Assembly: GCA_016931895.1 (NCBI GenBank)
Contig: JAFGDY010000056.1
Location: 1-47,483, forward strand
DNA length: 47,483 nucleotides
Reading direction: 5' to 3'
DNA from: Anaerolineae bacterium
GTDB lineage: Bacteria > Chloroflexota > Anaerolineae > 4572-78 > J111
Position 1 is the first letter of the stretch; every line of letters starts with the position of its first letter. Under the pieces are notes generated by a model, which saw nothing but the letters and a program-made list of their open reading frames with translations, made no database searches and was not told the origin of the DNA. This document shows, one piece after another, positions 5,086 to 8,093 of the stretch. The translations under genes were made by a program, and so were the position numbers.

Positions 5086-5544
5086 CTAGTAGCAATTGTG
5101 GTAGTAGCCACAGGTGTAGCTATATCGTCTATAAGTGGGATAGTTGTTCCAATAATAGTAGCCGGTGTAGTCGTAGCCATGGCCATAACTAGGGTAACAA
5201 CCGGGATAACGGCAAGGAGAAGGTCTAGGGGCAGGAGGTGGACAAGGCTGACCACAGCCACACCTCCCACAACCGGACCAACCGTCGCCGGACGGGATGT
5301 ACAATACCTGTCCGGCATAAATACAATCCGGGTTGGCCAGGCCATTAACACTGGCAATAGAATAGGGGTTGACTCCATAAATCCGGCCAATGCTAAAAAG
5401 GGTCTCGCCGTACCGGACAGTGTGATACATGCCGCCGCTGGCCGGTGGGGCGGCATAGCTATCGGGCACGCTAACCATTTGCAGTAAAACAACGGTCAAG
5501 ACAATGGGTAAAATTATCTTGAGAATAGGTAATACTTTTTTCAC
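5086..5544 (-). CDS. secreted LysM protein with Tyr/Gly/Cys-rich tail
   Basis: A 152-aa protein starting at GTG with a strong AGGAGG site 5 nt upstream. It has a signal peptide (to about residue 32, cut near SYAAPP) and one LysM domain (about 39-83, YHTVRYGETLFSIGRIYGV). The final 65 residues are dominated by Tyr, Gly, Cys and Pro. The LysM domain is clearly paralogous to the first LysM of the downstream gene. The aromatic, cysteine-containing tail is low-complexity and could be cross-linked or adhesive, but that is speculation. Together the pair look like small wall-associated proteins. Confidence 0.82.
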   Translation of the reverse strand: MKKVLPILKIILPIVLTVVLLQMVSVPDSYAAPPASGGMYHTVRYGETLFSIGRIYGVNPYSIASVNGLANPDCIYAGQVLYIPSGDGWSGCGRCGCGQPCPPPAPRPSPCRYPGCYPSYGHGYDYTGYYYWNNYPTYRRYSYTCGYYHNCY

Positions 5545-5984
5545 GTTTTCCTCCTATACAACTAGTTTTTGACCATACATAGGCCCTTCAATCATCCCCA
5601 ATTAGTAAAAATTTAAAGCTGGAATCCCTACATATATCCTTTTCCTTTCTCTCGGCCGCCGGTCATCCCCATTTCCGGCAACTCAGTCCATCAAACTTTA
5701 GCCATTATGCCAAAATGTTCTTATTAAATTTTTTGCAGGAGCAGAAAAATTGAACGCAGATTCAGGCAACTTCCAGACTTTTTTCAGGAATTTCTTTTAT
5801 TTTGGGCTATCATCAGCCTTTGCATCCAACTCAAAGGCAGGTTATTACTATGTAAAGCTTTTATGTTAAAACAATTATATCGGTACTTTTATTTAATTGC
5901 AACCCTTATTAGACATAATGTAAAAATTAACTTACCATAATGTAGGTAACCTAATAAAATTCGCCAGAAACTCTTCCTTGACCC
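5545..5984. other. AT-rich intergenic region
   Basis: About 440 nt without a credible gene. It must contain the promoter of the LysM operon (minus strand), but no consensus pair was convincing. Two short CATAATGTA-type repeats occur near 5920 and 5936; their meaning is unknown. Confidence 0.5.
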
Positions 5985-5985
5985 A

Positions 5986-6030
5986 AACAAAAAGCCCAAA
6001 CCGATGTTTGACTGATTGGCTTGGGCTTTT
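5986..6030 (-). terminator. second terminator-like hairpin, possibly bidirectional
   Basis: AAAAGCCCAA (5990-5999) pairs with TTGGGCTTTT (6021-6030). On the minus strand TTTTTGTTTG follows the stem, and on the plus strand TTTTGGTTTAT follows. It could back up the terminator at 6072-6094 or define a longer ncRNA. Confidence 0.5.
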
Positions 6031-6071
6031 GGTTTATCTTCATACAAACGCTTCCCTGCGAATTAAATATT

Positions 6072-6274
6072 AAAAAAAGGACCTGCGATGATCCTACTAT
6101 TTGTAGTTGTCAAAGAGCAATGAGGCGTTGTCTAAAAACAACGTCCCAATTTTGTCCACAAATAACAAACGCATATTAGGCCGCGCTATTTATGAACAAA
6201 ATCCCAGGCACTTCTTATTGTATCAATGAATCGCTTTAGTTTCAAGAGATATTTAACATAACGTCATAGACTTT
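6072..6274 (-). ncRNA. candidate structured small RNA of about 200 nt
   Basis: Several minus-strand signals line up: a promoter (TTGACC-N17-TAATAT, 6281-6309), an expected start near 6274, and a terminator (5-bp stem GGATC/GGTCC, then seven U) at 6072-6094. Between them a 16-bp stem forms from ATTTTGTTCATAAATA and TATTTGTGGACAAAAT with two G-U pairs. These are A-C mismatches on the opposite strand, which favours a minus-strand RNA. A smaller inner GCGC/GCGT stem and a CGTTGT/ACAACG hairpin (6126-6143) follow. No ORF of note is inside. The size and position next to the sigma gene bring 6S RNA to mind, but no closing end-to-end stem was found. It does not match RNase P, SRP or tmRNA signatures. 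Confidence 0.5.
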
Positions 6275-6280
6275 TGTCCT

Positions 6281-6309
6281 ATATTATGTCGTGTTTAGAA
6301 AAAGGTCAA
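6281..6309 (-). promoter_or_regulatory. promoter of the candidate ncRNA
   Basis: On the minus strand there is TTGACC (6304-6309), a 17-nt spacer and TAATAT (6281-6286); an overlapping CATAAT box is an alternative -10. No coding sequence follows for 700 nt, so the likely product is RNA. Confidence 0.5.
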
Positions 6310-6329
6310 GAAGAAGTTTTTTAAAGCAA

Positions 6330-6355
6330 GAAACCCGGCCCGTAGGCCGGGTTTC
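6330..6355. terminator. strong GC-rich hairpin
   Basis: An 11-bp perfect stem GAAACCCGGCC/GGCCGGGTTTC closes a CGTA loop. On the minus strand TTGCTTT follows, so it may be an insulating terminator just upstream of the ncRNA promoter. On the plus strand it is followed by an AAAAAGGAGGAG ribosome-binding site instead. Confidence 0.5.
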
Positions 6356-6372
6356 CCAAAAAGGAGGAGAAG

Positions 6373-6411
6373 ATGAACATGCCTTTGGCCCAAGTTAACA
6401 AAGTAACCTGA
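6373..6411 (+). CDS. possible 12-codon leader peptide
   Basis: An ideal AAGGAGG site lies 6 nt before an ATG that opens a 12-codon frame (MNMPLAQVNKVT) ending in TGA. The frame starts right after the hairpin at 6330-6355 and is followed by a small TGACCA/TGGTCA hairpin near 6421-6438. No downstream plus-strand gene is present, so it is not an obvious attenuator, and no plus-strand promoter was found. Confidence 0.2.
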   Translation: MNMPLAQVNKVT

Positions 6412-6525
6412 AAACCCAAATGACCATTGTGCTGGTCACATCCGGCGAACTTAATATAACATAATATATAACAATTTACATTACGCTAACACTACAGAAT
6501 CTATACGCTGACCCCCTAACCCCTC

Positions 6526-6588: not shown

Positions 6589-7803
6589 TTAACCCAGATA
6601 GTCACGCAATTGGCGGCTGCGGCGGGGATGGCGCAATTTGCGTAAAGCCTGCCCCTCGATCTGGCGAATCCGCTCTCGGGTGAGGCCAAATTTTTTGCCA
6701 ACTTCTTCCAGGGTGTAACTGCGACCATTTTGCAAACCAAAACGCAAACGCAAAATGCGCGCCTCCCGCGGGGTCAAGGTACTGAGCACATCTTCCAATT
6801 TTTCCTGGAGAAGATGATGAAAAGCCGTATCGGGAGGGGTGGGGGCGTCTTCATCTTCAATAAAATTGCCCAGTTCACTATCTTCTTCTTCACCCACAGG
6901 CCGCTCCAAAGAAACGGGGTGGCGGCTGACCCGCAGCATCCAGCGCACTTTGGAGGCGTCCAGGTCCATATAATCGGCCAATTCTTCGGGGGTAGGTTTG
7001 CGGCCCCAAACTTGCTCAAGCTGGCGAGAAATTTGGTGGAGTTTGCGGATGCGATCACTCATATGAACCGGCACACGAATAGTGCGGCCCTGGTCGGCCA
7101 GGGCGCGGGTGATGGCCTGTCGAATCCACCAGGTGGCATACGTGCTAAATTTGTAGCCGCGCCGGTAGTCAAATTTTTCAACCGCTTTCATCAGGCCCAG
7201 GTTGCCTTCTTGAATCAAATCCGAAAAAGGGACACCTTGCCCCATATATTTTTTAGCAATACTTACGACCAAACGGGTATTGGCTTTTATCAAGTGGTCG
7301 CGGGCTTTATTACCATCGCGAATAAAACGGCGCAGTTTGAGGGTTTCCTCTTCGCCGGAACAATTTTTTCTAAGTTTCTTGAGCGCACTTCGCCCTTTTT
7401 CTAAAGATTTGGCCAACATAATTTCTTCGGCGGGGGCTAACAGGGGCACCCGGGCCATTTCTTTGAGATAAAGGCTGATGGTATCGTCGGCGGCAATGCC
7501 GCTTAAATCAAAAGGGTCAATGGCAGGCAGAGGGATTTCAGTAGGGGATTGTTCTTTGAGACGTCGTTCTTCTTCGGCTTCTTCGACATCTGCATACACC
7601 TCGATGCCTTGATTGATCAATTGGATAAAAATCTCTTCCAATTGGGCCATATTGTCTTCCGCTTCGGGAAAACTGGCCAATAAGTCATCGGTGGTAAGAT
7701 AGCCACAAGATGTGGCTTTGTTCAGTAAATTGTCTAATACATTGTTTTGTTTTGGGTCGTAGATCTCAAAATCTTCTAATTCTTGTACTTTTTCTTCGAT
7801 CAT
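6589..7803 (-). CDS. rpoD: RNA polymerase sigma factor, RpoD/SigA type
   Basis: A sigma-70 protein of 404 aa with all four regions. Region 1.1 is short and acidic, and region 1.2 reads [14 protein letters not shown]. Region 2 carries [19 protein letters not shown] and [18 protein letters not shown], which contact core polymerase and the -10 element. Region 3 follows, then region 4 with [15 protein letters not shown] and [20 protein letters not shown] for the -35. The full set of regions and the C-terminal ALRKLRHP indicate a primary or group-2 housekeeping factor. The ATG at 7803 has a GAGG site 5 nt upstream and is preferred over the ATG at 7839. It is monocistronic, with a consensus promoter and its own terminator. 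Confidence 0.93.
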
Positions 7804-8093
7804 GCTCACCTCAAATCCTACGCCGCCCGATTTTTGCATCCAGACAAACGAAGATAAAATTCAGCTAATCCAGATTTTCAGGTACAACAGGAGTACTTGT
7901 GCTCAATAGAAATGGTTATTGTTAATAAAGATAATAGCGAGGTTATCTCAAATTTTGCGTCTATCAATAACTGTGTGGAAATTTACTAGAATGGAGAATT
8001 AAGTTCCTCTTACAAAGAATGAGCCAGGTAAGACGCTTCTCCTGGCCTGTGAGTTACTGTTTGATGGGGTCACCACTAAATAACTGGAACAAC
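7804..8093 (-). other. long 5' leader of the sigma factor mRNA
   Basis: About 290 nt between the consensus promoter and the ATG. It contains one modest hairpin (CCAGG/CCTGG near 8023-8044 in plus coordinates) and no recognised riboswitch. No ORF with a good ribosome-binding site was seen in it. Confidence 0.4.

Follow-up and report, generated by a model that had tools for sequence, protein, structure and literature searches.

Small RNAs that act in trans can usually be traced only within a genus or a family. Betaproteobacteria_toxic_sRNA (RF02278) is a small RNA with an anti-Shine-Dalgarno motif. Response regulators of the OmpR/PhoB type usually have sites laid out as direct repeats at an 11-bp pitch that reach the -35 position.

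The cia-dependent small RNAs (csRNAs) of Streptococcus are controlled by CiaR, the response regulator of a two-component system, and are marked by 11-bp direct repeats, by anti-Shine-Dalgarno and anti-AUG sequences in an unpaired region and by several paralogues (PMC3091779). Many of them fold into two stem-loops and some into the terminator alone, and the CiaR site reads TTTAAG-N5-TTTAAG (PMC3091779).

Here we describe a locus in a 47,483-nucleotide contig of an Anaerolineae bacterium (GenBank assembly GCA_016931895.1, contig JAFGDY010000056.1), the whole of which is referred to below as the window. On comparative evidence, the minus strand at about 6446-6325 carries one of a family of predicted small RNA genes that extends through the class. 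In these genes an anti-Shine-Dalgarno sequence is preceded by a variable leader, which often forms a hairpin, and followed by a terminator hairpin whose pairs covary (Table 1). The csRNAs are the family's closest parallel in design. Like them, the predicted RNA is short, often has several paralogues per genome, is preceded by promoter repeats at an 11-bp pitch and forms either two stem-loops or a terminator only. Its anti-Shine-Dalgarno sequence precedes the terminator hairpin and is predicted to be unpaired; in the window's own family (f1) it is joined by an anti-AUG sequence. Unlike the csRNA promoters, however, the promoter does not contain the CiaR box; its boxes, of which there may be up to five, are CGTAGGG-like at the same pitch, and the RNA is found across a whole class of another lineage, with a sequence that is unrelated as far as the absence of an Rfam match can tell. 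Because both the boxes and the RNA sequences differ, we propose a similar way of working and claim neither membership nor homology. The match to RF02278 is weak, at 17.4 bits over the terminator region against a gathering score of 50 bits for that family.

Table 1. Features of the locus, in the order in which they are read on the minus strand (positions in the window).
Feature	Position	Strand	Basis
Gene for the primary sigma-70 factor; a neighbour on the upstream side, outside the RNA	6589-7839	-	
Three direct-repeat boxes: CGTATAG 6507-6501, TGTAGTG 6496-6490, CGTAATG 6485-6479; starts exactly 11 bp apart	6479-6507	-	Sequence and class-wide box statistics
Extended -10 of the small RNA promoter, TGTTATATT; the -10 begins 27 bp past the last box	6453-6461	-	Sequence, conservation in relatives, spacing statistics
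Predicted small RNA gene, about 120 nt, class-wide family member; both ends inferred	6325-6446	-	Conservation, folds, covariance models R1 and R2
5' hairpin of the small RNA, GUGACC...GGUCAU; variable between relatives	6420-6439	-	Folds
Unpaired anti-Shine-Dalgarno and anti-AUG stretch, AUGUUCAUCUUCUCCUCCUUUUU	6358-6380	-	Predicted unpaired; core near-invariant in 83 sequences
Terminator hairpin of the small RNA (6355-6345 paired with 6340-6330), then a U-rich tail	6323-6355	-	Pair counts
Imperfect dyad ACATAATATAGGACAAAAGTCTATGACGTTATGT (ACATAA...TTATGT) upstream of promoter 2, possible regulator site	6256-6289	-	Retained in G001, with similar sequences in G005 and G009
Promoter 2, TTGAAA-N17-TACAAT with TG extension	6217-6245	-	Promoter scan; 17-bp spacing kept in G001, G005, G009
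Dispersed palindromic repeat copy; its two hairpins are the structure first described	6123-6204	.	R3 match 6124-6203, 76.7 bits
Terminator-like stem, weak, seven U	6072-6095	-	Promoter/terminator scan; none seen in G001
Terminator that closes the promoter-2 unit, AAAGCCCAAGCC...GGTTTGGGCTTT and a T-rich stretch; stronger than the 6072-6095 stem	5985-6029	-	Sequence; similar in G001
Promoter of the LysM gene, TTGCAA-N17-TATAAT	5874-5902	-	Promoter scan; conserved in relatives
LysM-domain protein gene, downstream	5086-5544	-	

The small RNA gene, its relatives and its promoter

Alignment with the corresponding locus of the sister species (G001) showed strong conservation of a block at about 6509-6325. 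The block recurs in G002, G003, G005, G006, G009 and G010, and the window's own genome (G000) holds a paralogue. Read on the minus strand, it consists of a promoter, a variable leader, a near-invariant (G)TTCATCTTCTCCTCCTTTTT and a GC-rich hairpin with a U-rich tail; in most copies from the window's family the leader contains a hairpin, and in the folds the anti-Shine-Dalgarno sequence CUUCUCCUCC is predicted to be unpaired. Among nine sequences, 8 of the 11 pairs of the terminator hairpin change on both sides, with 99% of cells paired.

A covariance model of the family (R1) matched 91 of 396 genomes of the class. Its matches were inspected, seven that did not contain the CU-rich motif were discarded as false, and the 83 sequences aligned were used to rebuild the model as R2. 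In this alignment 93.5% of cells pair and 166 cells are doubly changed, compared to 41 in shuffles, and sliding the hairpin partners against each other abolishes the covariation signal. The rebuilt model matched 46 of 55 class genomes, with scores of up to 74 bits. Genomes from outside the class served as the negative control: of 345 belonging to the phylum's other classes, 28 reach an E of 0.001 or lower, the best of them with 35.3 bits, and the weak matches include those in one genus (g322, family f107). Several paralogues per genome are often present.

Of the unpaired stretch, only the generic anti-Shine-Dalgarno core is class-wide, and the anti-AUG portion is limited to family f1. Within a family the sequences flanking the core are conserved, as GGTGATTTC in f29 and GGCATGTTCA in f1. 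The U-tracts behind the hairpin are imperfect in several of the 83 aligned members. We also observed frequent GGC in the loop of the terminator hairpin (alignment A5, columns 51-62), which a plain terminator would not need. At three small RNA loci (L116, L126 and L134, in G036, G097 and G037) there is a variant with a longer leader, in which GGCATGGTTC or a similar sequence pairs with a GAACCATGCC-like stretch just before the anti-Shine-Dalgarno sequence.

No family of Rfam 15 exceeded its gathering score in the window, a check that the preliminary description of this locus had proposed for 5980-6320 (minus strand), or in seven relatives from the class. Matches below the gathering scores (rnk_pseudo, Thermales-rpoB, Thr_leader, SorX, SorY and the toxic sRNA) were taken as chance, and several of them rest on terminator hairpins. 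A search of the literature for anti-Shine-Dalgarno small RNAs in Chloroflexi or Anaerolineae returned nothing relevant.

The boxes upstream of the gene were not included in the covariance model, and the promoter therefore provides independent evidence for the small RNA. CGT boxes spaced at 11, 22 or 33 bp occur in 78 of 82 distinct loci, compared to 2.6 in shuffles and 1 of 81 in a downstream control. Counts of the distances between boxes peak at 11 (135), 22 (77), 33 (31) and 44 bp (13), with very few in between. Each promoter carries two to five boxes with an 11-mer consensus of about CGTAGGGTAAG, and in 55 of 80 cases the distance from the last box to a TAnnnT -10 is exactly 27 bp. The exact pattern CGTAG-N6-CGTAG-N6-CGT occurs once per genome in three f29 genomes, solely at the small RNA. 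The boxes of G000 are more degenerate, and this pattern does not occur in that genome.

The dispersed repeat and the unit that contains it

The preliminary description had placed a single structured noncoding RNA of about 200 nt at 6274-6072 on the minus strand, within the interval 6072-6309, and had considered it 6S-like in size or else a new RNA family beside the gene for the primary sigma factor. When 6060-6320 was used as a query, the matches split it in two: one half found the equivalent intergenic region in the sister species, and the half that contains the hairpins matched unrelated loci in both the sister species and the window's own genome. Together the hairpins make up one copy of a small palindromic repeat, dispersed and restricted to this genus. 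An alignment of five full copies spans about 80-110 nt and shows a few compensatory changes in their stems. Among the 12 family genomes searched, the covariance model of the repeat (R3) matched 5 times in G000 and 10 times in the sister species; the other ten genomes gave no strong match, with two near-threshold matches in G003 and none in the remaining nine. The corresponding place in the sister species is without such a repeat. A single genome carries the palindrome several times at loci that are unrelated, and the element resembles REP/MITE-type repeats in being short, palindromic, scattered and restricted to one genus. In the flanks of some copies that were read, neither a partner transposase nor a target-site duplication was identified.

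Smaller palindromes were considered as well. Those like AGTTGTYYAAAAACAACT were rejected as a separate family, since they number 47 at up to three mismatches, compared to 48 in a reversed control. Palindromes like AGTTGTTCAAAAACAACT directly follow stop codons at three loci of the window's genome (L030, L032 and L036) and are perhaps solo copies of the first hairpin of the repeat, though their overall count is not above control. Matches to positions 116-142 of the query in G002, G003, G008 and G011 look motif-like but fall within what appears by eye to be coding sequence for a metal P-type ATPase, and we attribute them to chance similarity.

All the elements that had been named in this interval are physically there. 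The long stem with G-U pairs is present at about 6203-6150, the second hairpin is borne out at 6145-6124 (minus strand), and the proposed terminator, a stem AGGATC...GGTCCT followed by seven U, can be read as described. The fold of 6274-6072 (203 nt, minus strand) is better than those of all 200 shuffles, with a z of -3.6, and the two hairpins folded alone reach a z of -5.9, so the hairpins are not due to chance. The argument that the G-U pairs confine the RNA to the minus strand nevertheless fails for the element as a whole, because wobble pairs run in both orientations among the repeat copies; in other copies they are valid on the opposite strand only (repeat alignment, columns 52-53 versus 51). 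The promoter assigned to the RNA, TTGACC-N17-TAATAT (6309-6281, minus strand), exists as a sequence and matches at 9 of 12 positions, but it is not kept in the sister species, where TTGACC is lost. A scan of the region found 5 promoter-like sites compared to 2.7 (sd 1.8) in shuffles, and this site is no better than chance. Its TAATAT falls within the conserved dyad.

Promoter 2 is a better site than this one and is conserved. The hairpins sit within a short putative transcription unit, bounded by promoter 2 and the stronger terminator, whose body is not conserved. For the unit at 6211-5985 (minus strand), it is the promoter and the terminator that are kept in relatives and the RNA between them that is not. 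The transcript from promoter 2 was accordingly rejected as a conserved small RNA: the bodies from G000, G001, G005 and G009 align near the shuffle range, with a z of at most 2.8, except for G000 against G001, where z is 4.8 and the match extends into the shared terminator. ACATAAT-type motifs are found upstream of both promoter 2, at the dyad, and the conserved LysM promoter (about 5906-5948), as if one regulator might serve the two.

A 6S identity was refuted. The RNA had resembled 6S RNA in the size range proposed for it, but the 6S covariance model (RF00013) does not match anywhere in the window, and the 6S RNA that the genome does have exceeds the Rfam cut-off on another contig (G000:C162:52590-52773, locus L207). 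A 6S match is present in 11 of the 12 family genomes.

Taken together, these results largely refute a single, possibly 6S-like noncoding RNA of about 200 nt at 6274-6072, whether acting on RNA polymerase or otherwise. In its favor are a fold better than shuffles and a terminator-like end with seven U. Against it, the body is not conserved in relatives, the hairpins belong to a repeat that recurs at unrelated loci, the named promoter is not conserved and the 6S RNA lies elsewhere in the genome; we consider this reading very improbable. A lack of conservation in relatives was the sequence part of the grounds named at the outset for abandoning it, and that is what the relatives' sequences gave. 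The case demonstrates that a dispersed repeat can mimic a structured RNA when a single sequence is read. The observations of the preliminary description were confirmed in part and its interpretation is supported in part: a new noncoding RNA family does lie beside the sigma factor gene, but at about 6446-6325, upstream of the interval to which it had been assigned.

The association with the sigma factor gene itself is incidental, because in the sister species the block follows a radical-SAM-like gene. Both species share a block of small RNA, LysM, DnaJ and MerR genes, and it is the gene in front that differs, the sigma factor gene in one and the radical-SAM-like gene (L026:1660-2793) in the other. 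A scan of genome contigs based on the LysM gene yielded no useful relative.

Proposed mode of action and alternative readings

From the arrangement of boxes, unpaired stretch and hairpin, we infer a small RNA that would be controlled by a response regulator and would block the initiation of translation. A regulator of the OmpR/PhoB type would bind the boxes as tandem subunits and turn the small RNA on, although 11-bp repeats are no proof of such a protein. The unpaired CUUCUCCUCC would then pair in trans with GGAGGAG Shine-Dalgarno sequences and prevent binding of the 30S subunit; in the window's family, the stretch would cover the AUG as well as the Shine-Dalgarno sequence. The terminator hairpin would both end and stabilize the RNA. 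We place at roughly 65% the probability that the locus holds these two unrelated things, namely a genus-level repeat within an unconserved unit and a class-wide anti-Shine-Dalgarno small RNA that is driven by a response regulator and blocks the 30S subunit.

Nothing beyond the small RNA locus itself was found when this genome was searched for the 19-nt complement, allowing 2 mismatches or fewer. With no specific target found, titration of Shine-Dalgarno sequences in general, rather than of defined mRNAs, is a live alternative, in which the RNA would serve as a global brake on Shine-Dalgarno-led translation. That only the generic core is class-wide also favors this idea, but the conservation of the core's flanks within families (f29 and f1) suggests a more specific pairing, and we regard global titration as possible at well below even odds. 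More doubtful is a class-wide two-step stress switch, in which a dedicated response regulator, having its strongest genomic site at one small RNA promoter, would turn on an anti-Shine-Dalgarno RNA that titrates Shine-Dalgarno sequences broadly.

The conserved block could instead belong to a neighboring gene. It lies upstream of the LysM gene in most f1 loci inspected, as a leader or attenuator would, but the LysM gene is served by a separate conserved promoter that follows the terminator, and across the class the next gene and even its strand vary. Such variation fits a free-standing, trans-acting RNA, and it is quite improbable that the block is a leader and not a free small RNA. A small gene on the plus strand, with the Shine-Dalgarno sequence AAAGGAGGAG followed by ATGAACATG... 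(6372-6410, MNMPLAQVNKVT), can likewise be read in the window with a good Shine-Dalgarno sequence and start codon. The encoded leader peptide was rejected, since it is not conserved beyond MNMP, the ATG is absent from this place in most of the class, and the promoter boxes, the -10 and the U-rich tail are all arranged for the minus strand; this reading is extremely unlikely.

The reading that we prefer remains a small RNA that would be regulated by a response regulator and would block translation initiation. The family is conserved throughout much of a class, its promoter architecture is rigid and Rfam has no entry for it, and it offers a way into post-transcriptional control in this group of bacteria. 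Furthermore, the strong form of its box pattern is nearly unique in a genome, which means that the regulator and the signal to which it responds can be found.
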